A stretch of DNA of 38,338 bases from contig CANRQF010000007.1 of the NCBI GenBank assembly GCA_947632715.1, positions 1 through 38,338 of the forward strand. Direction: 5' to 3'. The notes beneath the pieces are model-generated. The model was not told the DNA's origin and searched no databases. It was given only the letters and a program-made list of their open reading frames with translations. The position numbers and the translations under genes are program-made. Of this stretch, positions 15,934 through 36,016 are shown in pieces. Source of the DNA: an uncultured Bacilli bacterium. GTDB taxonomy: Bacteria > Bacillota_I > Bacilli_A > RF39 > UBA660. Position 1 is the stretch's first letter, and each line of letters starts with the position of its first letter.

Positions 15934-16254
15934 TTGAAAAAACATTTACAAGAATTTATTAAAAAATTAGAAAAAGAAATAGCTGAAAATCATAAATTTT
16001 CAGCTAAGGAAATAGAACTAATAAGAGAAAAAATAAATGATTTTCAACATGAAAGATTAATTCATTTATTAGTTACTTTATTTTATGTTATTTTTACATT
16101 TACATTTATGGGATTTGGTATGATTTCACCAATATTCTTAATTCCATTCTTTATTGGTATTATTTTTCTTATCTTTTATATTAAACATTATTTTTTCTTA
16201 GAAAATGGTGTTCAATATATTTATACCTTATATGATAAAATAACTAAACTATAA
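15934..16254 (+). CDS. Small protein with two predicted transmembrane segments
   Basis: Starts 6 nt after the previous stop; adjacent hydrophobic stretches LIHLLVTLFYVIFTFTFMGF and PIFLIPFFIGIIFLIFYI. Confidence 0.6.
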   Translation: MKKHLQEFIKKLEKEIAENHKFSAKEIELIREKINDFQHERLIHLLVTLFYVIFTFTFMGFGMISPIFLIPFFIGIIFLIFYIKHYFFLENGVQYIYTLYDKITKL

Positions 16255-17712
16255 TTCATTATAATCATTTATTTTATTTATATTATTTTGATATTCATTA
16301 ATTACTAAACTAGTTGTAGTAAGAAGCATACTGGCAATTGATGTAGCATTTTTCAAACTATTTAAAACAATATCTAATGGATCAATAACTATTGTATCTT
16401 CTTTAGTTTCATATTTACTGTTTATGATATTATAAACTACTTCATAATTATTATTTTTTATATTATTTATAATTTCATGATCTAAACCAGCATTAGTTAT
16501 TATTTGCTCTAAAGGTTTCTTTAGAGCTTTTTTTAATATTTTTGTAGCGTTATTTTCGTTATTAACAATTTCGCTTATTTTATATAAAGAAATTCCACTT
16601 CCCATTAATACTCCATTTTTAGAAGATGCAACTGCTTCTTTAGCATCATCATAACGCATTTTCAACTCTCTTCTTTCTGTATTCGTTAATGCTCCCACTT
16701 TAATTTCAATAATTCCTTTACTTAATTTTTCTATTCTTTTGTTATTTGTTATATCTTTATTAAAAGTTATGATACTTTCATCTTCTTTTATTTTTATATT
16801 GTTAATAACTCCCAAGTTATCAACACTCAAATTATTTAAATTAGTATTACTTATCAAACATAAATCATTTATAATATTTACTTTTTCAGCTCCATAGCCA
16901 GGAATTTTTAAAAGAATAATTGGTAAATTGTTTTGCAAATATAAACTTATCATATCATTACTAAATTTATCGTTATAATCATCTGCAAATATTACTAAAC
17001 TTTTTTTAGTTTCTAAAACATAATTTATTATATCTGCTATCTCTTCAATATCGGTCATAAAACTATTTACAATTAAAATATATGGATTATCTATGTCAAT
17101 AATTTTTTGATTAGCAAAATAATATGGTGATATTATTGAATCCATTACATAACCTTTTTTATAAATTACTTCTGTTTTATAACTTCCCTCACTTATTTTT
17201 ATTTTATCTTTATCTTTTACTTTTAAATAAGCACTACTAATTATTTTTCCAATCTCTTTACTACCTCCAGCAATTGTAGCTATCTTCTCTATTTCTTTTT
17301 TACTTGCATGCCATGATTCTTTTTTTAACAATTTTTCTAATTCACTTAAATAACTATTTAATTCATTTTTGATAACTATGGGACTTACTCCTTCATCAAT
17401 TAATTTAATACCTTCATGATAAATACTTTGTAATAAGACTAAAGTAGAAGTTGTACCATCACCCACTAATTCATTCGTTTTAATTGATGCTTCTTTAGCT
17501 AATAGTAAAATTGTATTAACTACTTCATCATCACTTTCTATGTTTTCAGCAATAGTAACTCCATCATTAGTAATAAAAGGACTAAATGCCGAATGGTCAA
17601 TAATAATATTACTCCCCTTAGGTCCTAAAGTCATTTTTACTGTATCACATAATAAATCAATCGCAGTAGTCATCTTTTCTCTAAGTTCATTTTTACTTAC
17701 TACTTTTTTCAT
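16249..17712 (-). CDS. groEL: Divergent GroEL/Hsp60 chaperonin
   Basis: TVKMTLGPKGSN, ITNDGVTIAENIE, ELVGDGTTST, RRELKMRYDDAKEAVASSKNGVLMGSG, SLKNATSIASMLLTT; no Gly-Gly-Met tail. Confidence 0.9.
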   Translation of the reverse strand: MKKVVSKNELREKMTTAIDLLCDTVKMTLGPKGSNIIIDHSAFSPFITNDGVTIAENIESDDEVVNTILLLAKEASIKTNELVGDGTTSTLVLLQSIYHEGIKLIDEGVSPIVIKNELNSYLSELEKLLKKESWHASKKEIEKIATIAGGSKEIGKIISSAYLKVKDKDKIKISEGSYKTEVIYKKGYVMDSIISPYYFANQKIIDIDNPYILIVNSFMTDIEEIADIINYVLETKKSLVIFADDYNDKFSNDMISLYLQNNLPIILLKIPGYGAEKVNIINDLCLISNTNLNNLSVDNLGVINNIKIKEDESIITFNKDITNNKRIEKLSKGIIEIKVGALTNTERRELKMRYDDAKEAVASSKNGVLMGSGISLYKISEIVNNENNATKILKKALKKPLEQIITNAGLDHEIINNIKNNNYEVVYNIINSKYETKEDTIVIDPLDIVLNSLKNATSIASMLLTTTSLVINEYQNNINKINDYNEL

Positions 17713-23053: not shown

Positions 23054-23944
23054 TTATTCTTTTATTTTTCTAAAGACAGGATGTCTTAAATGATTACTTT
23101 TAGTTCTTTCTAAATATTCTATTTCACATATAATTTTATCATCTATATAATAAATTCCTTCTTCATTGTAATCAGCAAAAACTGATTTTTTATTTTTAAA
23201 TTTCTTTAATTTTTCATATATTTCTTTTTTCTTACTCATTACTACTTTACCTACATAGTATAGTTTATTATTTCGCATTTCTCCTAAAATTAGAGATACA
23301 GTATTATTTTTATTATTAGTGTAGCCACCAATTACAAAATCTTCCATTTTAATATTTTTTATTTTTATCCAGTTATTACTTCTTTCATTAATATCATAAG
23401 TACTATTTTTATCTTTGGCAACAATTCCTTCTAAACCTAATTTTTTAACCTTCTTAAATAAATTAATTCCTTCTTCATTTATATACTTAGTTTTAATAAA
23501 AACATCATTATCTTGATACTTATCTAATATTCTCTTTCTTTTTAAAAGTGTTAAATTAGTTAAATCTTCATCTTTATATAAAATATCAAAACAAACAAAG
23601 ACAACAGGATTATCTACACTTTGACTTTTTATCGTTAATTTATTTTTTAATCTATTTCGTTGTTGTAATTTATTAAATGATGGCTTATCTTTATCGAAGG
23701 CAACTATTTCACCATCGAAAATAACTTTTTCTTTAACTAAGTTTTTGATCTCTTGTAATTCAGGAAACAGATAAGTTAAATCTTGCTTATTACGACTTTG
23801 AATAACCACTTCATTTGGAGTTGCAAACACAATAGCTCTTATTCCATCAAATTTCATTTCATAAATATAATTACTTGAATCAAATGGTTCATCAATTTCT
23901 TTTAAAAGCATTGGTTGCCAATCTCTATTTTTCCATATATTCAT
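23054..23944 (-). CDS. ligD: ATP-dependent DNA ligase (LigD ligase-domain type)
   Basis: YEMKFDGIRA (KxDG), FDGEIVAFD, LGLEGIVAKD, NWIKIK; overlaps ku by 4 nt. Confidence 0.9.
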   Translation of the reverse strand: MNIWKNRDWQPMLLKEIDEPFDSSNYIYEMKFDGIRAIVFATPNEVVIQSRNKQDLTYLFPELQEIKNLVKEKVIFDGEIVAFDKDKPSFNKLQQRNRLKNKLTIKSQSVDNPVVFVCFDILYKDEDLTNLTLLKRKRILDKYQDNDVFIKTKYINEEGINLFKKVKKLGLEGIVAKDKNSTYDINERSNNWIKIKNIKMEDFVIGGYTNNKNNTVSLILGEMRNNKLYYVGKVVMSKKKEIYEKLKKFKNKKSVFADYNEEGIYYIDDKIICEIEYLERTKSNHLRHPVFRKIKE

Positions 23945-24687
23945 TTTTTCTTCAGACTCTTTTCTAAAGCTTCCATTAAATCGTTAACTTTTTGTTTAGG
24001 TTTCTTTTTAACTTTTTTAACACTTTTACCATCTAGTTTATCCTCAATTGCATCTTTTATATTATTTTGATATTCATCTTGATATTTGGATGGTTCAAAT
24101 TTACCAGATCTCTCTTCAATTATTTTTATAGCTAAAGCAAGTTCTTTTTCATCTACTTTATCTATAGTTTCTTTTTCAGGAAGTATTACTTCTTCTTGAA
24201 AAAATAAAGTAGTCATAACTATACCATAAGGTGTAAATCTTAAAATACAATAATAGAATTTATTACCAATAACTGTTTTAGCTAAAGCAACTTTTTTAAC
24301 TTTCTTTAAAGCTTCACAAAATAAGTTATAAGCTTTTGATTTCTTTTCGACATCTAAAATGTAACTCTTTTCAAAATAAGTTGAATCTACTTCTTTAATA
24401 TCAATAAAAGAAACAATATCTATTTCATGTTCATTTTCTGGTTTTAATTTATCTAATTCTTCTTTAGAAAAAGTTAAATACTTATTTCTTTCATATTCAT
24501 AACCTTTAATAATATCTTTTTCTTTAATATTCTTTTTACAATGTTCACAATATTTAACATATTTAATTCGATGTAAGCAACTTTTATGCAATTGATTAAA
24601 GGAAGTATCATTATTCTTGATTATGGGATTCATTACAACGGGAATATTAACAAGTCCAAAAGAAATATTATTTTTTATATTGGGCAT
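23941..24687 (-). CDS. ku: Ku homodimer protein for NHEJ
   Basis: ISFGLVNIPV, HRIKYVKYCEHC, YEYERNKYLTFSKEEL, DSTYFEKSYILDVEKKSKAYNLFCEAL. Confidence 0.9.
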   Translation of the reverse strand: MPNIKNNISFGLVNIPVVMNPIIKNNDTSFNQLHKSCLHRIKYVKYCEHCKKNIKEKDIIKGYEYERNKYLTFSKEELDKLKPENEHEIDIVSFIDIKEVDSTYFEKSYILDVEKKSKAYNLFCEALKKVKKVALAKTVIGNKFYYCILRFTPYGIVMTTLFFQEEVILPEKETIDKVDEKELALAIKIIEERSGKFEPSKYQDEYQNNIKDAIEDKLDGKSVKKVKKKPKQKVNDLMEALEKSLKKK

Positions 24688-24738: not shown

Positions 24739-24755
24739 GTCTATATTACATAGAC
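24739..24755 (-). terminator. Intrinsic terminator after the amidase
   Basis: Minus strand GTCTAT-GTAAT-ATAGAC-TTTTTTT. Confidence 0.75.
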
Positions 24756-25922
24756 TAATTAGGTAAAATTAAAGTTTGACCAATACTTAAAGTATTACTT
24801 TTTAAATCATTTAATTCTTTTATTTTATCTACTGTAGTATTGTAAGTTCTAGCTATACTATATAGGGTATCACCACTTTTAACTGTATATGTTAATTGAT
24901 TATTACTTGAATCAGGTATTTTTAAAACTTGACCAATTGATAAAGTATTACTATTTAAATTATTCAATGCTTTTAAGTCATTTACAAATACACCAAATTT
25001 ACTAGCTATACCGTATAAAGTATCACCTTTCATTACAGTATATGTTTTAGCTTTCTCAGTACTAGATGATGAGATTATTAATTTTTGACCAATACTTAAA
25101 GTATTACTTGTTAAATTATTTAAACTTTTTAAATCATCAACAGATAAACCAAATTTTCTTGCTATACCATATAATGTATCACCACTTTTAACAATGTATA
25201 CTTCATTTTCTTCTGTAGTAGTATCATCTTTCTTTTTCGGTATATATAAATTTTGACCAATTGACAAAGAATTACTTGTTAAGTTATTTGCACTCTTTAA
25301 TTCATCAACTGATATTCCAAATCGTCTTGCTATACCCCACAAAGTATCACCACTTTTAACTTGGTAATAATCTTCACCTAAAGAAACTGGTTTATAAGGT
25401 ACACCAATATATTCAGTTATAGCTTTAACTACTGCTTCAGCATATTGCTCCCAATTATTTTTAAGTTGACTTACATCATCACCCGTTGAATCTAAAAAGC
25501 CATATTCTACTAATACTGATTCGTTATTAGGAGTATCTCTTAAAATATAATAATAGTCTTTAGAAGGATTACTAGGTAACCTTCTTTGATAATATTTACG
25601 AACATTTTGACCTGTCTTTTCAATTTCACTTGTTATTTTTCTAGATAATGCATCACTGTTTCGTAATGAATATATAATCTCGAACCCATCACCGCCACCA
25701 GCATTGATATGGTTGGAAACTAAAATAACATCACTTCCATTACCATAAAAACTTTGAGCTCTTTTTGGTCTTGCATTAGAATCTAAAGTTTCATCAGTTG
25801 TTCTTGTCATTTGTGAATCTACTCCAAGTTCATCAAATCTTTTCTTCATATATTGACTTATTTTTAAAGTTAAATCTTTTTCAACAATACCATTACCACT
25901 GGCACCGGGATCATCGCCACCA
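24755..25922 (-). pseudogene. N-acetylmuramoyl-L-alanine amidase (amidase_3 plus four LysM), 3' part of an interrupted gene
   Basis: In frame upstream of the ORF-track start: HGGDDPGASGNGIVEKDLTLKISQYM; in-frame TAG and no start codon beyond. Four LysM units (VKSGDTL...IGQ). Confidence 0.9.
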
Positions 25923-25944
25923 TGGAATGACCCAAATAAACCCG
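25923..25944. promoter_or_regulatory. Attachment-site half (attL)
   Basis: + strand TG-GAATGACCCAA-ATAAACCCG next to amidase CGCCACCA. Confidence 0.9.
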
Positions 25945-25980
25945 GAAACTATATTTTTATATTAAAAGACTAAATATTTA

Positions 25981-27585
25981 TTATAAGTCAAGATTCCATT
26001 CGATTTTAATTTCTCGTGTTTTAGAGCTTTTATCAAATGTACCAATATATATTTTTTCTATAAATTCTTCTACAATTATTCTTGTTAGTTTTTCTATACG
26101 TGTATATTTTCTTAATATGCTATCAATATCTTTAGTATTTTCTTTTCTTTCTGCTACTTCACTTAATTCATTTTCAATTTCTTCTAATCTATCTTGATAA
26201 GAACTAACATCTCTTGAATACTCTTCTCTAAGCATTGAAAAATCATTATCTGAAATCATACCATTCATTCTATCAGAATAAAGATTTTTAAAATATAATT
26301 TACTTTCATTTAATTTCTTTTCAAGACTAACTTTTTCTTTATTTAAATTCACTATAACATTATTTTGTCTGTTTTGTCTTTCTAATTCTAAACTATATTT
26401 ATCTTTTAATAATTTTTCATTACACTTTTTTAATAAATTATTAATTGAATCTAGCACATATTGTTCTATAACATCATATCTTATTGATTTATTATTATCA
26501 CAAGTATGATATTTTTTATGTCCTTTGCATTGAAGATATGCCTGTTTAACTATTGTATTATTTTTACCTTTAACATTGAATAGATTTCGCATAAATATTC
26601 TTCCGCATTCAGCACAATAAACTTTACTACTTAAAATATGTACTTTTCCATCTTTAACTGGTCTATGATGATTTTTTAACCTTTTTTGAACAATAAACCA
26701 AGTATCATTATCAATAATAGGTTCGTGAACATTTTCTATTATACACCATTCAGATTTTGGAACTTTTTTTGCTTTATGATTTTTATAGCTAATACTCGTT
26801 CTTTTTCCTTGAACAAGATTTCCAATATATGTTTCATTTTTTAGTATTGTTGATATTGTATCTGGAGTCCATAATCCTGTTGCTTTATAATCAAAATTAC
26901 AACATACAAAATTACTACCAATAGATTTTTTATAAAGAGATGGACATAATATTTTTCTTTTGTTTAAACTTTCACATATTTTGTAATAACCAAGTCCATT
27001 TTTATATTTACCAAATATTTCTTTAATTATGGGTGCAACATTTTCATCAATAATTAGTTTATGTTTATTATTTGGATCTTTCAAATATCCATAAGGTGCA
27101 AAGCTTCCCATAAACAAGCCATCTTCTCGTTTATTTTTTAAAGATTTTTTAACATTATTTGATAAATCTTCTAAATACCACTCATTAACAAGTCCATTAA
27201 TTTGTCTTGATTTTTTATTTGCTTCATTATTAGTATCAGCATTATCTACTATACTAACAAATCGAACGCCCCATTCAACAAATTTATTATGCAAATATTT
27301 TTCTATTACTTCCATATCTCTTGAAAATCTACTTTGAGTTTTACATAACACAAGATTTATTCTGCCATTTTCACAATCATTAATTAGTCTATTAAAATCC
27401 GGTCTTTCAACTCCTGCTCCTGAATAATCATCATCTGAATAAATATCAACTATTTCCCAACCTTGATTCAAAGCATATTTTAAAAGCATACTTTTTTGAT
27501 TTGCTATTGACTCACTATCATCATTTTTATTTTTTTTAAATCTATCTTCATCAGATAGTCTACAATAAACACCTACCTTTTCCAT
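25981..27585 (-). CDS. Large serine recombinase (integrase/excisionase) of the element
   Basis: GVYCRLSDED, SIANQKSMLLKYA, YSDDDYSGAGVERPDFNRL, SRFSRD; Recombinase domain; CAECGRIF zinc ribbon; coiled coil. Confidence 0.95.
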   Translation of the reverse strand: MEKVGVYCRLSDEDRFKKNKNDDSESIANQKSMLLKYALNQGWEIVDIYSDDDYSGAGVERPDFNRLINDCENGRINLVLCKTQSRFSRDMEVIEKYLHNKFVEWGVRFVSIVDNADTNNEANKKSRQINGLVNEWYLEDLSNNVKKSLKNKREDGLFMGSFAPYGYLKDPNNKHKLIIDENVAPIIKEIFGKYKNGLGYYKICESLNKRKILCPSLYKKSIGSNFVCCNFDYKATGLWTPDTISTILKNETYIGNLVQGKRTSISYKNHKAKKVPKSEWCIIENVHEPIIDNDTWFIVQKRLKNHHRPVKDGKVHILSSKVYCAECGRIFMRNLFNVKGKNNTIVKQAYLQCKGHKKYHTCDNNKSIRYDVIEQYVLDSINNLLKKCNEKLLKDKYSLELERQNRQNNVIVNLNKEKVSLEKKLNESKLYFKNLYSDRMNGMISDNDFSMLREEYSRDVSSYQDRLEEIENELSEVAERKENTKDIDSILRKYTRIEKLTRIIVEEFIEKIYIGTFDKSSKTREIKIEWNLDL

Positions 27586-27640
27586 TTTCTACAACACCTC
27601 ATATTCTAAGAGTTGTAGCAAAATTAAATCTACATAGATA

Positions 27641-27796
27641 TTATAATTCATATTGTGAATTATTTAAAGCCACGTTTTCATCCTCACTTGCTAATATAAC
27701 TCGTAATAATTTCTGAGTAATAACATTCTCTAATTCTATTTCTTGTAATTTTTTATCATCTTTTATTACATATACTACATTATAATTTACCTCCAT
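27641..27796 (-). CDS. Small 51-aa protein upstream of the recombinase
   Basis: MEVNYNVVYVIKDDKKLQEIELENVITQKLLRVILASEDENVALNNSQYEL, preceded by AAGGGGG; below the ORF-track length cut-off. Confidence 0.6.
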   Translation of the reverse strand: MEVNYNVVYVIKDDKKLQEIELENVITQKLLRVILASEDENVALNNSQYEL

Positions 27797-27852
27797 TTAT
27801 ATTCCCCCTTTTTTATTTTCTATAAAGAATAATCTCCATAAATAATCATATA

Positions 27853-28338
27853 TCACTCCTCCTTAAAATTTTTTAATAAATCTTCCATACTTTTTAATTC
27901 ATCTCCTGTTAATTTTTCATCTTTACAAATCTCTGAATTTTTCATCCAATATGGAATAACATTTAATTTTTTATAATTATTTCTTGTATATTCTTTTCTT
28001 GTATCTTGGTAATTTTTTACTACCCTATCATTACCTTTTTTTTCTAATGCTTTAGCATTTTCTTTTACAATAATATTAGTATTCAAATATATTCTTCTTT
28101 GCCCTTTAATAAATTTAATATCTATATAATTGTTTCTTTTTAAATTATTAATTGAATTAGAAATTGTTTTTTCTTTAACATTTAACGAATTAGCAAAGTA
28201 TTTATTACTAGCGTAGCAATACTCCCTATTATTAGATAATGAGTTAATCATTCCATAAACTAACTTCTCAGTTTGAGAACAAGATTGGTCATTTAATATT
28301 ATTCTTGGTACAGCGATAAAATAACTTATAAAAGCCAT
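27853..28338 (-). CDS. Helix-turn-helix protein, replication/regulation type
   Basis: SQTEKLVYGMINSLSNN...YFANSLNVKEKTISNSINNLKRNNYI winged HTH. Confidence 0.7.
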   Translation of the reverse strand: MAFISYFIAVPRIILNDQSCSQTEKLVYGMINSLSNNREYCYASNKYFANSLNVKEKTISNSINNLKRNNYIDIKFIKGQRRIYLNTNIIVKENAKALEKKGNDRVVKNYQDTRKEYTRNNYKKLNVIPYWMKNSEICKDEKLTGDELKSMEDLLKNFKEE

Positions 28339-28497
28339 ATAATCCTACTCTCTTAAAATATAGTTTCCATTTTTTGGGTATAAATATCCTAGAATGATGT
28401 TATCCTAAGATATTTATTAAAATTCATTCTATATTTTATATAGAATAGGTACTAACATAAGTCTTACTCTTACTGTACCCTTTTAACTAATGTTCTC

Positions 28498-28761
28498 TTA
28501 ACTATTAGTTAAATGTATCGTATACATTCCTTTATCATATTCTTTAAATATTAAATACTTAAATTTTTCTAATATTTGAAGATTATTTCTTAACCCCTCA
28601 TTTTTTATCTTAATTGTTTGTTGTAATTCTCCGATATTTATGTTAGTAATTATTTGCTCACTACCTTTTGCATAAATATATGTATAGATATATTTTGCTT
28701 CTATCGGAATGTTTTTATTTTTCCAAATATTATCTGAAATCTGAAATTTCATAATCTTCAT
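28498..28761 (-). CDS. Small HTH-like protein
   Basis: IPIEAKYIYTYIYAKG...LRNNLQILEKFKYL, similar layout to replication-initiator-type wHTH proteins. Confidence 0.55.
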   Translation of the reverse strand: MKIMKFQISDNIWKNKNIPIEAKYIYTYIYAKGSEQIITNINIGELQQTIKIKNEGLRNNLQILEKFKYLIFKEYDKGMYTIHLTNS

Positions 28762-28814
28762 ACATAATTTTCGCTCCTTTTCACTTGATGAGTTTTACAT
28801 CAATTTCAATTTTG

Positions 28815-28891
28815 AGTATATCATCTTGTATTGAGTTTGTCAACATAGTAATTACAAATTTGTTGACTTTCTCATCATTTTGTGATATAGT
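28815..28891. promoter_or_regulatory. Divergent promoters with shared inverted-repeat operator
   Basis: Minus: TTGACA(28843-28838)-17-TATACT(28820-28815). Plus: TTGACT(28863-28868)-17-TATAGT(28886-28891). GTCAACA(28839-28845)/TGTTGAC(28861-28867). Confidence 0.85.
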
Positions 28892-28928
28892 TGTTTTGTG
28901 ATTTACAAAGAAAGGTGGCTTTTTTTAT

Positions 28929-29486
28929 ATGAAAAAAACTACTACTGAATTAGGTAAAACAATAAGTACAGCAAGACAAAAATTAGGCATTTCTCAACGA
29001 GAACTAGCAAGACAAGCAAATATGGATTGTGCAGAAATTTCTAGAATCGAAGCAGGTAAAAGAATAAAACCAAATATTCTTTATTTAAAAGGCATTGCTG
29101 ATACATTAAATTTAAGTATGGTTGAATTAATGAAACTTGCAGGATATAACGATATAGATATTAATTGGGGAAAAGATTTTTCAAACAGAAGATCTATTTC
29201 TGATTATCAAAAACAAATCCAAAGTTATGAAAAATTTTATTTTAATGTATTAGAAGAAATTGAAAATAGAAGAAAAGTTGATTTTGCTATTAAAGGTGGT
29301 ATTGCCGATTTAATTGATAAAATAGAATTAGCTAAAATTGAAAAAAAGGAAATTGCAAACAATGAGATTTTAGAAAGATTAACAGAGATAATTATAATGA
29401 TTAAACCGAATTTAGAAAAATTGGATAAGTCAAAATATCCAATTCATGATTATGGAGTCCATTCTAAACCCGAAAATAAATTTTAA
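28929..29486 (+). CDS. XRE-family transcriptional regulator
   Basis: LGKTISTARQKLGISQRELARQANMDCAEISRIEAGKRIKP. Confidence 0.9.
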   Translation: MKKTTTELGKTISTARQKLGISQRELARQANMDCAEISRIEAGKRIKPNILYLKGIADTLNLSMVELMKLAGYNDIDINWGKDFSNRRSISDYQKQIQSYEKFYFNVLEEIENRRKVDFAIKGGIADLIDKIELAKIEKKEIANNEILERLTEIIIMIKPNLEKLDKSKYPIHDYGVHSKPENKF

Positions 29487-29593
29487 CGTAAAATTTACTG
29501 CTAATATATTCAATAAGCAAAATAAATTTATGAGCACGTTTTGTTTTTCGTTAGAAAAATGAAAGTGATTATAATAAATTTATTCATCAAAAA

Positions 29594-29690
29594 ATAATCT
29601 TTTTGCCTTTTCTAAAGATTAGGCATTAAGATTATTTTATATAAAAGATATGCTATTTTTTATAACTATTTTGCATATCTTTTCTTTTTT
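29594..29690 (+). terminator. Two hairpins after the XRE gene; second is an intrinsic terminator
   Basis: ATAATCTTTTTGCC(29594-29607)/GGCATTAAGATTAT(29622-29635); AAAAGATATGC(29643-29653)/GCATATCTTTT(29673-29683) then C-TTTTTTT. Confidence 0.7.
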
Positions 29691-29771
29691 TAGAATAACA
29701 TAAGGTATTATAAAAAAGGCAACAATATTACTTACGATTAGTTTGTAATTTGTTACTTTAATGGGGTATCA

Positions 29772-29851
29772 AAAGGGGAATATTCCCTTTGCACACCTAT
29801 ATTGGTTTTACCAATATAGTAGTGTGTTACCTAGTTGTCAAAAAACTAGGT
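29772..29851 (+). promoter_or_regulatory. MobV-type origin of transfer (oriT)
   Basis: Perfect hairpin CTATATTGG-TTTTA-CCAATATAG (29797-29819) followed at once by TAGTGTG/TTA (29820-29829), the pMV158-type nic motif; flanking hairpins 29772-29790 and 29829-29851. Confidence 0.85.
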
Positions 29852-29910
29852 TAAATTAAAAATACATTTGTTATAAAAGATGTCCTTTAAATTTTGTTTT
29901 TGTTAATATT

Positions 29911-31449
29911 TTATTTAGATTCCTTTTGCTTAGCAATTTCAACCATTTCTTTTAATTTATTTCTATCCCACAAAATTATATTTTTGTTTTTAGCTAATTC
30001 TATTGCGCTTGGTGTAAAATAACTATTAGTCAATACAACTCCAACATGACAATTATATATTCCCATACTTCCAATTACTTCTTGAACAGCTTTAATACCT
30101 ACTGAACCAGAAAACTTTTTACATTGAATAGCGTATTTAATTTCATCTTTCCACGCAATTACATCTGCTCCAAAATCACCACTTGCTTTTGTTACTTCAA
30201 CATTCTCAAAACCATTAGCTAATAATAATTCTTTACTATAAAATTCAAATTCAAATCCATCTAAATTGTTATCTATATTTTCAATAGTGTTTTTTTCATA
30301 AGCTTCTTTCACTTCATTATCTTCTTTTTCATTGCTAACGCTTATTTTTTTAACTGAATGTAATTCAATCATTTTTTTATTATATTTTACATGATTTTTT
30401 TCTAAAAATTTATTAATGTCAACATTCTTTATATTTACATTATTAAATGCGTTTTTATTTAATTTAATTGAAAAAATATTTATTTCCTCTTTTATTCCAT
30501 TTAATGGATTAATATCAGTAACTAAACAATTAACTATTACGTCATCAATGCATTCTTTAAATATACTAAACAAATCTGAAATTATTTTTAATGTACCTTG
30601 CATAATAATATTTTCATAAATTATATTTATTTCATTATCCGAATAGTTTTGATATTCAATTTGTTTCTTTGCATTATTATATTTTGCTTTTTTCTTTAAT
30701 TTGTTTAATTCTTTAGGTGAGATGAAATTAATTTCAGAATAAAACAACTTTTTACTTTGATTATATTCACATTTATAATATTTAGCAAAGTCCTTTATTT
30801 TATCAATTTTAAATTTAAATGCATATTGAGATAAATATTCTTTTATCAATTTGGCAATTACATTTTTATCATCTTGATAATTTCTATATTCATTCATAAT
30901 CAAATCATTATGGACTTTTGTTTTCAATATATTAATTATAGCATTTATGTAATATTGTTTTTTTAACTTATTATCCAAAGCTATATATTCTTGATATTTT
31001 TTTAAATAATTGTCATTTGCTTGTTGAGTTAATTTAATTCGTTCATTTTTTCTCTTTTTATAAAAGAATTCTAAAATTTTATTTTCTTCCTTTACTTCTA
31101 ACAATTCTAATTCTTTATTTAAAGTAGGTACTTTTAGTTTTGAAATATAATTGTAATCAGGAATTTCTTGTAATTGTTTTTTATAATATTCAAAAATAAA
31201 ATTAGGATTAACTTCTGGCAATTCTTTCAATATGTGCAAAATATTATTATAATTTTTAGTCAATATTTTATTTTCTTTTTCGACTTGAATTTTTAAATTT
31301 TCAATTTTTTTTGCTTGTAATAATTTTTGCATAGCTTTTCTTTCTTTTTCTTGCTGAGCAGCTAATCTTTGATTTCTTCTTTGAACAGAATCAGCATATT
31401 TCGTTATATCATCTAATAGTGAAAAAATGCCATAATTATTTTTTGCCAT
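29911..31449 (-). CDS. Mrr-like restriction endonuclease with long N-terminal coiled coil
   Basis: FEFYSKELLLANGFENVEVTKASGDFGADVIAWKDEIKYAIQCKKFSG...AVQEVIGSMGIYNCHVGVVLTNSYFTPSAIELAKNKNIILWDR. Confidence 0.85.
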   Translation of the reverse strand: MAKNNYGIFSLLDDITKYADSVQRRNQRLAAQQEKERKAMQKLLQAKKIENLKIQVEKENKILTKNYNNILHILKELPEVNPNFIFEYYKKQLQEIPDYNYISKLKVPTLNKELELLEVKEENKILEFFYKKRKNERIKLTQQANDNYLKKYQEYIALDNKLKKQYYINAIINILKTKVHNDLIMNEYRNYQDDKNVIAKLIKEYLSQYAFKFKIDKIKDFAKYYKCEYNQSKKLFYSEINFISPKELNKLKKKAKYNNAKKQIEYQNYSDNEINIIYENIIMQGTLKIISDLFSIFKECIDDVIVNCLVTDINPLNGIKEEINIFSIKLNKNAFNNVNIKNVDINKFLEKNHVKYNKKMIELHSVKKISVSNEKEDNEVKEAYEKNTIENIDNNLDGFEFEFYSKELLLANGFENVEVTKASGDFGADVIAWKDEIKYAIQCKKFSGSVGIKAVQEVIGSMGIYNCHVGVVLTNSYFTPSAIELAKNKNIILWDRNKLKEMVEIAKQKESK

Positions 31450-31530
31450 ATCACACTTCCTATCTAACATTCAAAACAAATTAACTTATAAGTTACAGGA
31501 CATTTAAATTTTGATATTATTAAAAATATG

Positions 31531-32316
31531 CTAATTTAATGTAACATATTCAACAACAATTCTTGGAATAGTTATGCTCTCTCCAAATATTGATTCATAG
31601 GTTTCTAAACCATTTAATTGACCATATATTGTCAAAATATCTTCTTCCAAAATTCTACCTTCAAAATATGTAACTGGTATATATGCTAACATAGTGTCAT
31701 CATAATAACCATATTTATCTTTAGTAACATTAATCCTTATCAAATAATATCCATATGATTCTTGAACTTGTATTACTTCACCAGTAAATGTAGCATATTT
31801 TCCATCATAATTACTTGAATTTCTAAAAATTTCTTTATAATTGTATTCCTTACATTTATCTTTGTAATCTTCAAAATAATAGTTTCTTCCTTCTAAAATC
31901 GTTTGCTTTATTAATTCATTTTTTTCATTATAAAATTTTGTTTTATCTTCAAAATTATCGTAACTTGTATTTTTTGGATCTTCTAAAATTATTTTACCTG
32001 TTAAATCTTGATTATTATAACATTCAAAATTAATGTTTTTTATTTTTATCTCTTTAAATTTATCATTATTAATTGATGAAATAGCATCTCTAGCAAATAT
32101 AGCACATGAACTCCAATTATCAGTGTTTATTGCATTAATATTTAAATTTAAGTCATCATCAATATTTATTTTATCATCAGAATATATCCAATATGATGGC
32201 ATATTATTTTTTATATGTTGTTTTATTTGTTCCTTATTATTTTGTAATATTTCTTCTTTGTTCTCACAACCACATAAACATATACAAACCATTATAAAAA
32301 TTATAATTTTTTTCAT
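31531..32316 (-). CDS. Lipoprotein with C-terminal OB-fold-like domain
   Basis: Signal MKKIIIFIMVCICLCGC lipobox; YDGKYATFTGEVIQVQE...YLIRINVT...DILTIYGQLNGLETY. Confidence 0.7.
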   Translation of the reverse strand: MKKIIIFIMVCICLCGCENKEEILQNNKEQIKQHIKNNMPSYWIYSDDKINIDDDLNLNINAINTDNWSSCAIFARDAISSINNDKFKEIKIKNINFECYNNQDLTGKIILEDPKNTSYDNFEDKTKFYNEKNELIKQTILEGRNYYFEDYKDKCKEYNYKEIFRNSSNYDGKYATFTGEVIQVQESYGYYLIRINVTKDKYGYYDDTMLAYIPVTYFEGRILEEDILTIYGQLNGLETYESIFGESITIPRIVVEYVTLN

Positions 32317-32388
32317 ACTTCCACTCCACTCACTTTCTCTAATTATAACATATTTTCAAAACGAATATATATAATATCACGATATTTG

Positions 32389-32610
32389 TTATTTTTGCTT
32401 TATTCGTTTTATTTCTTTTAATCCAGCACATCTTGATTCTTCAATTAAAGCACTTATTATATTAACAAGAAATTTTCTTTGTTTCTTTTCTATTTTCTTG
32501 TTTTCAATTAATAACCATATAACTAATGTAACTATTAAAATTGTCATTATTAATACAGCTATAATAAGTAAATTTATATGATTAGAAAAATATATTAAGA
32601 TTTCATCCAT
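32389..32610 (-). CDS. Small single-pass membrane protein
   Basis: LLIIAVLIMTILIVTLVIWLLI then a basic tail. Confidence 0.55.
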   Translation of the reverse strand: MDEILIYFSNHINLLIIAVLIMTILIVTLVIWLLIENKKIEKKQRKFLVNIISALIEESRCAGLKEIKRIKQK

Positions 32611-32724
32611 AATTTTTCCTTTCTTTTAAATATTATATCATTTTTACGACATTTAGTGAACTTTTTAGATTAACATTTTTTAAAATGGGAAAATTATTAC
32701 ATAAAGGAATTAGATGATGTAATA

Positions 32725-33180
32725 ATGATTAACAATACTCGATTAGAAGAATTAAGAGAAGAAAATGATTTAAAACAAATAGAACTTGCTCATATTTTTA
32801 AAATTGCAAAAAGTACATATTCTGAATGGGAACATAATAAAATTCCTATACCAACTAAAAGAGTAATTCAAATTGCAAATTACTATAAGATTAATATTGA
32901 TTATATATTAGATATATCCAACATTAAAATAACTATTAATAATATTACCTCTATTAACTTAAATATAATTGGCAATAATATTAAATGTATAAGAAATAAT
33001 TTAAAATTATCTCAACATCAACTTGCTGATATGCTAAATATAGACCAAACAACACTAAGTAAATATGAATTAGGAAAATCTTTAATTCAAATTGATACTT
33101 TAATAGGATTAAGTAAACTATCAAATATCTCAATAGATTATATTATAGGTAGAACTAACAATCCCAAAATAAGCAAATAA
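32725..33180 (+). CDS. Tandem-HTH XRE-family regulator
   Basis: Two XRE units: LREENDLKQIELAHIFKIAKSTYSEWEHNK and IRNNLKLSQHQLADMLNIDQTTLSKYELGK. Confidence 0.85.
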   Translation: MINNTRLEELREENDLKQIELAHIFKIAKSTYSEWEHNKIPIPTKRVIQIANYYKINIDYILDISNIKITINNITSINLNIIGNNIKCIRNNLKLSQHQLADMLNIDQTTLSKYELGKSLIQIDTLIGLSKLSNISIDYIIGRTNNPKISK

Positions 33181-33217
33181 AAAAGTGAGAGTATGAACAT
33201 ATAATATTCTCACTTTT
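33180..33217. terminator. Bidirectional terminator between convergent genes
   Basis: AAAAGTGAGA...TCTCACTTTT, 10-bp stem with A/T tracts. Confidence 0.75.
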
Positions 33218-33219
33218 AA

Positions 33220-34500
33220 TTATAAACTTATTTCAAAATCATCTTTGTTTTTATCCGAATGTTTTTTAGTTTTTAAATAACTTGGTACTTCTGCGTATTC
33301 AAATAACTCATCTTCTTTGGTAGTTTCTTTTGAAATATCATAAACATCATCAAAATCAAAATTTTTATTGTCATAATAGTTTTTTATTTCGCTTGTAGTA
33401 CGTTCTTTAGTTTTATCATTACCAATTTGTAATAATTCTCTAAAAAATTTCTTTATAACTTCTAAAATGGATTTTAAATAGTCTTTAAGATTATTATTCT
33501 CTTTAACTAAGTTTTGATTTCTTGCAGTAAGAACTTTTACTTCAAATTCTAAATTATTATTTTCTTTTTTTAATGTTTGATGACTTTTAGTAAAAGTTTC
33601 TACTTCATTAAATAATTGTTCCATTTTAGGTTGAAATTCCATTATTTTTTTACTTTCTTTTATAACATTTTTCATACTATCAAAAGTATCTTTTTTTACT
33701 TTAACATATTCTTTATCAATAAAAGTATTTTTGGTAGTTTTCATTTTTTCTTCAAAATCATTTACAGCATTATCTAACCCTTTATTTATTGTAATAACTT
33801 TGTTTTCTAAATATCTAGTTGTCTTTTTAAATTCTTTTACTTTTTGATGCTCTGCATCACTACCTTTAATACCTCTTTCTAGTTCAAAACCTGCTTCTTT
33901 TAATCTCACATTATAAATATCTTGTAATTCTGACAAATGAATATTATCTCTAATATATTGTTTTTTAGAAATAGTATATCTTTCTGTATTAGTTCTTTTA
34001 TCTAGTTTTTTAACAAGTGGTATAACAACACAATGAATATGAGGTGTTAATTCATCCATATGAATAGTTGCGTGTAAAACTTGCTCTTTTGTATAACCTA
34101 AATCATTATAAACAAAATCCATACAAGTATTAGCCCATCGCATTATATCTTCTTTACTCATATTCTCGAAAAAATTATGAGATGCCGTAAATAGTAATTC
34201 ATCTGCTACAACACTTTTTGATTTATTTAACATTTCATTAAAAGTCTTTTTTCTTTCCGGTCTTTCACTTTTCATTCTTTCATTATGCTCTTTTTCGTAA
34301 TCTTTTACTTTCAATTTAAAACCCTTAACATACTTTTCTGCTAAGGGTACTAATTCAATATTATTTTTTGTTAATTCTAATTTTATATCTTTATTGCTTT
34401 TATATGCTTTCTTTTCTCTTTTATTATGTGATCCGATTTGTGCTAAATCATTTATAGTCATTATCGGTTGACTTCTAAATATTCCATAATTTAAATTCAT
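33220..34500 (-). CDS. MobV-family relaxase (Mob/Pre)
   Basis: VLHATIHMDELTPHIHCVVIPL (HxDExxPHxHxxxxP) plus long C-terminal coiled coil. Confidence 0.9.
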   Translation of the reverse strand: MNLNYGIFRSQPIMTINDLAQIGSHNKREKKAYKSNKDIKLELTKNNIELVPLAEKYVKGFKLKVKDYEKEHNERMKSERPERKKTFNEMLNKSKSVVADELLFTASHNFFENMSKEDIMRWANTCMDFVYNDLGYTKEQVLHATIHMDELTPHIHCVVIPLVKKLDKRTNTERYTISKKQYIRDNIHLSELQDIYNVRLKEAGFELERGIKGSDAEHQKVKEFKKTTRYLENKVITINKGLDNAVNDFEEKMKTTKNTFIDKEYVKVKKDTFDSMKNVIKESKKIMEFQPKMEQLFNEVETFTKSHQTLKKENNNLEFEVKVLTARNQNLVKENNNLKDYLKSILEVIKKFFRELLQIGNDKTKERTTSEIKNYYDNKNFDFDDVYDISKETTKEDELFEYAEVPSYLKTKKHSDKNKDDFEISL

Positions 34501-34546
34501 TTATCATCCTCGCTTTCTTATGCGTATAAAAAAGAATTAAATCTTC

Positions 34547-35389
34547 TTAACCATTATAGTTTTTATCAAAATATGCCATTTTTCCAATTTCAATATATTT
34601 ATCATCTAAATATTTAATAAATTTATTATATATAAACAAAGAACCATTTTTATCGCAAATAGTTAAACATGGTATTCCACTTTCTATAATTTGCATTCTT
34701 TCATCATCTAATTTTTCTATATCAATTGTACTTTTTTCACAAAAAATATTCTTTTGATATTCTCTAATTTTGTCGTAAATTGCAATTGGATTTACCACCG
34801 AGGTTTTATAAATATTTAAATGATAAGAAAGATTTCTTATATTACTCGCTTCATCATATATTTTTTTAAATATTTCATTATACAATTTAATTTTTTTTGA
34901 TTTATTATTAACTATGAATCTTATATCATCATATATAGCCCAAAAATCATTAAAGTTTATATCTGATATATTTAGATATGCATCTATTATTTCATCAAAA
35001 TCATTAAAAATATTTTTATTGTATTCATCGCATAGTTCTCGTAATTTAATTTTTTTGTCTATAGTATTATCTTGCTTTTTGAATTTCTCTTTATATTCGC
35101 TGTAACTTAAATACTTTGTCTCTTTAAGATATTTAATTTTTGAAAAACAATTTTGATATTTCAAAATGAAATTCATAATACTTTCCAAATCTTTTCTTCT
35201 ATAAGAAAAGTATTCAATTAGCGAAGTAGCAAACAAAATAATTGCACCTGCAAATATATTTAAAGAAATATTACAAATAAATTTTGTTATTTCGTTTTGA
35301 ATTGTAAAAAATGTTAACATTATGCTTAATCCTAATGTAATTAATATAAAAATACTGCTTAATCGAAAAAGTCTATAATTTAATTTCAT
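34547..35389 (-). CDS. Membrane protein with two N-terminal transmembrane segments
   Basis: SSIFILITLGLSIMLTFF and SLNIFAGAIILFATSLI; start taken at MKLNYRLF. Confidence 0.6.
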   Translation of the reverse strand: MKLNYRLFRLSSIFILITLGLSIMLTFFTIQNEITKFICNISLNIFAGAIILFATSLIEYFSYRRKDLESIMNFILKYQNCFSKIKYLKETKYLSYSEYKEKFKKQDNTIDKKIKLRELCDEYNKNIFNDFDEIIDAYLNISDINFNDFWAIYDDIRFIVNNKSKKIKLYNEIFKKIYDEASNIRNLSYHLNIYKTSVVNPIAIYDKIREYQKNIFCEKSTIDIEKLDDERMQIIESGIPCLTICDKNGSLFIYNKFIKYLDDKYIEIGKMAYFDKNYNG

Positions 35390-35492
35390 TATCAATACCT
35401 CATATATATTATACCACTTAAAAAGACACTTTCTAAAGTATCTTATCATAAATCATAGATTCTTTTTTGCTACAACCCAAGTTTTAATTTAT

Positions 35493-35514
35493 CGGGTTTA
35501 TCAAAACTCGGGTG
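35493..35514. promoter_or_regulatory. Attachment-site half (attR)
   Basis: + strand CGGGTTTAT-CAAAACTCGGG-TG next to amidase ACCAGCATCAAT. Confidence 0.9.
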
Positions 35515-35656: not shown

Positions 35657-36016
35657 TTAATAATTTTTTACCAAATTATAATAATTCCCTTTTCTATTCA
35701 TTAATTCTTGATGAGTTCCATTTTCTAATATATTTCCATGTTCCATATAAATAATTTTATTACAACTTTTAATCGTTGTTAATCTATGAGCAATTATAAA
35801 ACATTGTTCTTCAATCTTTTCTATTGTTTTATCCAAATCGCCTAAATTAATACTTTGTATTTCATCTTTAAATGCTTCATTAATAAGTTCTATTATTTCT
35901 TTATTTTGATTATCTAATAATTTTTCAATTACACTAAATAAAAATTTTTTAATTTGTTCTTTTGAACTTTTTTCACATAATTCTTCCAATAATTTATATA
36001 AATCTTTTTTATTCAT
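35657..36016 (-). pseudogene. Chimeric ORF: helical N-terminus joined to the C-terminal end of an ABC exporter ATPase
   Basis: IEEQCFIIAHRLTTIKSCNKIIYMEHGNILENGTHQELMNRKGNYYNLVKNY (H-loop and tail) without Walker A or signature motif. Confidence 0.7.

Follow-up and report, generated by a model that had tools for sequence, protein, structure and literature searches.

A predicted MobV-type transfer origin lying behind, and antiparallel to, the relaxase gene of an IME from uncultured gut Bacilli

The window analysed here is the whole stretch of 38,338 nucleotides from an uncultured member of the Bacilli (RF39/UBA660; contig CANRQF010000007.1 of assembly GCA_947632715.1, positions 1-38,338, plus strand). 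At 25925-35514 it carries an IME inserted in an Amidase_3 gene. The amidase ORF (24755-25849) extends upstream, reading from 25924 downwards, just to HGGDDPGASG, and the missing N-terminus (MDERATKKVVIDAGH) is found at 35556-35514 of the same window; the gene is split at the HGG codon by a serine-recombinase element. Relatives G294 and G301 (L103, L104) possess the uninterrupted gene (VVIDAGHGGEDPGASG) and represent empty sites. Comparison of the junctions places the attL core at 25923-25924 (recombinase end) and the attR core at 35513-35514 (relaxase end), both on the minus strand. Because the dinucleotide CA is common to both window junctions and to the L016 and L069 pairs, it is probably the crossover dinucleotide, hence the element length of 9,590 bp. 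In another relative (G303:C12; L153, L154) different serine-recombinase elements interrupt an Amidase_3-LysM gene at two points, and the amidase gene appears to be a hotspot for integration. The ORF beside attR (35657-36016) ends in a C-terminal fragment of an ABC exporter ATPase and represents a gene remnant.

Next to attL a large serine recombinase (integrase) is encoded (25981-27585, minus strand; PF00239, PF07508, PF13408), which is kept beside the amidase in L010, L014, L016, L047, L054 and L069. It is followed by two proteins assigned to a conserved backbone by synteny, an HTH_36 winged-helix protein (27853-28338, minus; PF13730) and an 87-aa protein (28498-28761, minus; syntenic in more than 30 loci), and by an HTH_3 regulator (28929-29486, plus; PF01381; syntenic in part of the family) which adjoins the predicted oriT. 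On the other side of the oriT lie three cargo genes: one for a restriction or defence-like protein with an Mrr_cat nuclease domain (29911-31470, minus; PF04471, E=2e-30; PADLOC matches to ZorD and type IV REase), one for a putative lipoprotein without family, its lipobox read from the sequence (31531-32316, minus), and one for a tandem HTH_3 protein, cargo or regulator, with PF01381 in two stretches (32725-33180, plus). The last is antiparallel to the relaxase gene mob (33220-34500, minus), and a similar gene is found behind mob in many loci. Only 46 bp separate mob from the next gene upstream; between mob and attR an ORF for a 300-aa membrane-type protein (34547-35449, minus) gave no match in Pfam, NCBIfam or PADLOC. 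No T4SS or coupling-protein gene was found among the ORFs of 25925-35514. The element thus combines its own serine recombinase and two attachment ends with a relaxase and a predicted oriT, but no T4SS, as is typical of IMEs.

Outside the element, the window starts within a second serine recombinase, of which the C-terminal portion is present (1-1086); this is probably the edge of another element. A divergent GroEL-like chaperonin ORF of 487 aa lies at 16249-17712, and adjacent Ku-like and ATP-dependent-ligase-like genes at 23054-24687 form a probable non-homologous end-joining pair in this 1.2-Mb genome. At the contig end (37069-38338) a nucleotidyltransferase/antitoxin-like pair looks like AbiEii/AbiEi; a similar pair adjoins the second relaxase copy on contig C50 (L004, 688-2063).

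The predicted oriT (29772-29851, plus strand, which would be the transferred strand) consists of three hairpins and a nic motif, scores 93 bits with the covariance model R1 and has homologues at about 50 loci. Hairpin H1 (29772-29790, plus; AAAGGGG..TCCCTTT) is kept and covaries in relatives, for example CAAAAGGG/CCCTTTG vs CCAAAGG/CCTTTGG. Hairpin H2 (29791-29826, plus) contains an IR1-like stem at 29797-29819, made up of CTATATTGG (29797-29805), TTTTA and CCAATATAG (29811-29819), which is directly followed by TAGTGTG (29820-29826) and TTA (29827-29829). In the single-stranded fold, where H2 spans 29792-29826, CACAC/GTGTG closes this 9-10-bp stem and lengthens it to an IR3-like structure. The nic motif TAGTGTG/TTA (29820-29829, plus) has its predicted cut at 29826/29827; TAGTGTGTT is invariant in 35 aligned homologues, as are the nic and GCACAC motifs. 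Just 3' of nic follows H3 (29829-29851, plus; ACCTAGTT..AACTAGGT), a hairpin of the single-stranded fold with stems also in relatives. The letters, the lengthened stem and a further hairpin on each side are as the sequence-only reading had described them. A degenerate fourth hairpin, H4 (29852-29896, plus), is decayed in the window and intact in 23 of 50 relatives. Where it is found (L010, L014, L035, L040, L047, L054 and others) it lies about 25-75 nt past nic and has a covarying stem and a nearly constant 19-nt loop (TTAGTTACGAAGTTTCTTT); a single-strand origin or an ssDNA promoter are guesses at its role.

Folded as ssDNA, 29765-29860 forms the three hairpins with -21 kcal/mol (z = -6.3), and none of 200 shuffles was as good. 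TAGTGTG occurs once in the whole window; in 200 order-2 Markov windows it occurred about 1.9 times per window and never after a 9-bp hairpin. The pattern GCACACN{16,30}GTAGTGTGTTA matched in four of 291 genomes of the phylum, its reversed control in none. On the minus strand a near-consensus promoter (TTGACA-17 nt-TATATT, 29813-29841) overlaps H2 and H3; it is directed toward the recombinase operon and away from mob, while the overlapping promoters of pMV158 point into mobM.

The relaxase (Mob_Pre, 426 aa) belongs to the MobV family according to PF01076 (E=9e-30, 104 bits, cut-off 25.5) and NF041497 (112 bits, cut-off 100). Its sequence matches the MobM crystal structures (4lvi, E=3e-14), the similarity to MobM being distant. 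His25 is aligned with His22 of MobM and kept in 43 of 44 sequences. In the HxDExTPHxH motif (residues 147-156) H147, D149, E150, P153, H154 and H156 are present in all 44 sequences and T152 in 43.

In pMV158 IR1 lies 8 nt before the nick, IR3 adds to IR1 a basal stem that has a small bulge, nicking takes place between G and T, it is the coding strand of mobM that is transferred, and oriT is located upstream of mobM (PMC5863519), which agrees with what the earlier reading had said of this plasmid. The window resembles this MOBV1 system in the nesting of IR1 in IR3 with a GCACAC/GTGTG basal stem and small bulge, in the nic TAGTGTG/TTA with the same G/T dinucleotide, in a single-stranded, nic-proximal stretch with GTGTG/TT that comes after IR1, and in the His nucleophile and HUH motif of the relaxase. 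However, IR2, which in pMV158 overlaps the right arm of IR1 and encloses nic, is absent from the fold of the window, where the 3' flank of nic pairs with itself as H3; instead, H1 and H3, and in the family often H4, are present. The proposal of a MobV oriT with pMV158-like IR1/IR3 and nic is strongly supported by the relaxase's family assignment and kept catalytic residues, the co-occurrence, the position and the covariation, with IR2 missing and H1 and H3 as additions. The arrangement differs as well: in pMV158 oriT and mobM share a strand, with oriT upstream and overlapping the mobM promoters, whereas in this family the predicted oriT is found 3' of mob, antiparallel and up to about 7 kb away. 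In the window nic is 4,674 bp from the relaxase start at 34500, matching the distance of about 4.6 kb given before. The term "unlinked from the relaxase gene" has to be withdrawn, because both lie on one 9,590-bp element and oriT follows the 3' end of mob throughout the family.

A relaxase scan of genome contigs yielded 80 loci, almost exclusively from uncultured gut Bacilli; they contain about 50 oriTs of the same build. A covariance model, which brought up further ones, was run on 195 genomes of the window's family, all metagenome assemblies in which contig breaks are common. It found oriT matches in 69 genomes; Mob_Pre was present in 92, in 46 of these with at least 80 bits, our own cut for a strong match. 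In a table made from the listed hits, 40 genomes had oriT and strong Mob, 29 oriT without it, six strong Mob without oriT and 120 neither (Fisher p ~1e-16). Wherever both occur on one contig, oriT comes after the 3' end of the relaxase gene (40 of 40 pairs), in 39 of 40 on the opposite strand, the exception being G377:C9; almost every locus with mob from the relaxase scan shows this downstream, antiparallel position too. In the compact forms of many genomes oriT directly adjoins the stop codon of mob, at about 1.2 kb from where mob starts; elsewhere 1 to about 7 kb of genes lie in between. An oriT behind mob and antiparallel to it is the family-wide arrangement, and just the cargo between them varies. 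Of the 29 oriT-positive genomes without a strong Mob match 14 have no Mob match at all; because the inspected cases are mostly contig breaks or truncated mob copies, we do not claim relaxase-less hitchhikers. In L163-L165 (G181, G105) H1 and H2 occur with a GACTTTGC..GCAAAGT stem and TAGTGTGTTATACGC, and in L164 and L165 Mob is found kilobases downstream of oriT on the same strand, which is the pMV158 polarity.

The interval between mob and oriT is a cargo slot, in which 135 of 159 ORFs from 38 loci read toward oriT. An enrichment of anti-defence functions was considered and rejected: 104 ORFs match 68 Pfam families, none present in more than three members, so that the slot is mixed. Beyond oriT many loci share the backbone of HTH regulator (sometimes), 87-aa protein, HTH_36 protein and serine recombinase. 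The predicted oriT is therefore the fixed border between backbone and cargo.

H3 occurs with 14 different stems in the relatives, and 48 of 50 are perfect over at least 7 bp vs 0.6% of shuffles, so it is the pairing and not the sequence that is selected. The divergence of the H1-H2 half follows that of the relaxase (Mantel r=0.40, p<0.001), and each hairpin correlates with Mob distance (r=0.33-0.44); these tests were done on related sequences and are descriptive. Because oriT is also correlated with backbone genes (87-aa protein, r=0.42), the co-variation with Mob is no specific proof of pairing.

Taking together the relaxase family match with its conserved catalytic residues, the nested IR1/IR3-like hairpin, the nic identical to that of pMV158, the position conserved in 39 of 40 pairs, the co-occurrence, the Mantel correlation, the element ends with their empty sites and the H3 covariation, we consider 29772-29851 very probably the oriT cognate to this IME's MobV relaxase; a VirD4-type coupling protein encoded in the same MAG was also counted in its favour. 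It is improbable that the site is an oriT served in trans by another MobV protein, the local relaxase using a different site. Such a mimic would fit the further Mob genes (C50, C92) and second oriT (C15) of the MAG as well as the genomes that hold oriT without Mob, and the Mob copy on C50, 96% identical, means that the pairing in vivo need not be unique. However, the window has no second TAGTGTG, a scan of its sequence found no hairpin-plus-nic beside mob, where only the 46 bp upstream are available, the position relative to mob is kept in 40 of 40 pairs, and the distances of H2 follow those of Mob.

Integrated elements can also use a relaxase for rolling-circle replication, and the neighbouring HTH_36 gene resembles replication-type winged helices. 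Considering also the reviewed multifunctionality of relaxases (PMC5714925), the site could be a rolling-circle origin, with MobV-type nicking for replication of the excised circle, or an integrase or regulator site. This is less probable still, as nic and hairpin nesting match the MobM oriT and the element has no Rep-type HUH gene, although roles in transfer and in replication are not mutually exclusive. The lowest probability is given to transcription terminators or other RNA hairpins that just resemble an oriT: the hairpins are indeed intergenic and overlapped by the promoter-like site, but there is no T-tract and no terminator call, the oriT region has no match in Rfam, and one would not expect a terminator to keep its nic and GCACAC motifs invariant.

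For the cognate oriT we infer the following course. The serine recombinase would excise the element as a circle, and the relaxase would bind H2, cut the plus strand at 29826/29827, probably via His25, and stay on the 5' end. Through a helper T4SS the strand would then enter the recipient, with H3 and cargo leading and mob behind them, and it would be re-joined at nic. A helper would be needed because the element has no T4SS gene; the VirD4-type gene (G000:C24), which nothing ties to the element, only suggests one. Since cargo and mob both read toward oriT, the incoming strand would serve as their template, like that of leading regions on other plasmids (cf. PMC11541004). In this reading cargo was inserted between mob and the antiparallel oriT behind it.

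Tn4451/TndX-type IMEs differ in target and gene order. They share with the window element the serine recombinase and MobV relaxase without T4SS (PMC5704250). IMESag-rpsI of Streptococcus agalactiae is likewise chromosomal, has its own integrase and a MobV relaxase, lacks a T4SS and is mobilized by a helper; in contrast, its order is oriT-mob-ssoA with oriT directly upstream, and its nic is GTGCG/T (PMC5090054). The oriT type is known (MobV), and it is the inverted mob-cargo-oriT layout of the predicted IME that is new.

Comparing distances between loci, H1 and H2 are correlated (r=0.55) and so are H3 and H4 (r=0.26), whereas H2-H3 (r=-0.01, p=0.57) and H1-H3 (r=0.03) are not. Although just a few invariant bases separate H2 and H3, their correlation is below that with a gene kilobases off. 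L038 and L042, for example, agree completely in their left halves and differ in H3, while pairs such as L027/L035 have H3 in common and different H2, and between H2 and H3 only TAGTGTGTTAC is shared, probably not enough sequence for ordinary homologous recombination. Recombination of oriT-type RSA sites by Mob/Pre proteins is known to proceed without RecA (PMC5714925), and other systems offer documented cases of oriTs exchanged through a relaxase (PMC4652767). The linkage break would fit such an exchange at nic. RSA recombination (pT181, pE194, pMV158; pBMB0228) involves the same relaxase family and an oriT-type site, with RecA-independent exchange documented (PMC5714925; PMC4652767), whereas what the window's family shows is a linkage break at nic in its sequences. 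The H3 variation could also come from a short stem that mutated repeatedly with compensation (homoplasy). Tentatively, with somewhat less than even chances, we regard nic as a joint for module exchange, at which Mob/Pre recombination between oriTs of co-resident IMEs would swap all that lies 3' of nic, namely H3 and the cargo region that enters first, while the backbone with H1-H2 stays constant. L088 carries two oriTs of different type as direct repeats and would offer a natural substrate.

In viral contigs of IMG/VR neither exact nor relaxed oriT patterns matched, and no relaxase relatives were found in viral contigs. A blastn search with the oriT and the family consensus against plasmids and phages gave partial matches only, which were not used as evidence. 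Nucleotides 4-30 of the query hit an H1-like hairpin near MobC/LPD7 genes of proteobacterial plasmids, and nucleotides 40-67 a sequence that is conserved on Lactobacillaceae plasmids and has another nic. The former hairpin (GGGGTTTCAAAGGGG..CCCCTTTGGCAC) is found on plasmids of E. coli, Aeromonas and Pseudomonas (L090, L092, L094) and adjoins MobC/LPD7-relaxase genes in L092 and L094; possibly it is an accessory oriT motif common to MOBV and MOBP systems. The Lactobacillaceae plasmids (L091, L093 and others) carry TTATTGGCTAGGCCAATATCGTAATGTGAC, in which the IR1-like stem is the same and nic is altered; it lies in a conserved block between genes, in one case 2.6 kb away from a mobV gene.

To our knowledge, few if any transfer origins have been described for these uncultured gut Bacilli. 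The covariance model provides a computable oriT signature, together with an exactly delimited element, for this widespread group. Search rules have dropped oriT-relaxase pairs more than 3.5 kb apart (PMC11541004); with such a limit, or when the search is directed to the surroundings or the upstream side of the relaxase, many of these oriTs would be overlooked or given the wrong orientation. In this layout the leading region contains cargo and mob, both of which are transcribed in the direction of oriT. With the linkage break exactly at nic, the old idea of plasmid evolution by Mob/Pre recombination at oriT becomes testable, and, if it is true here, these IMEs would evolve by trading leading regions at their transfer origin.
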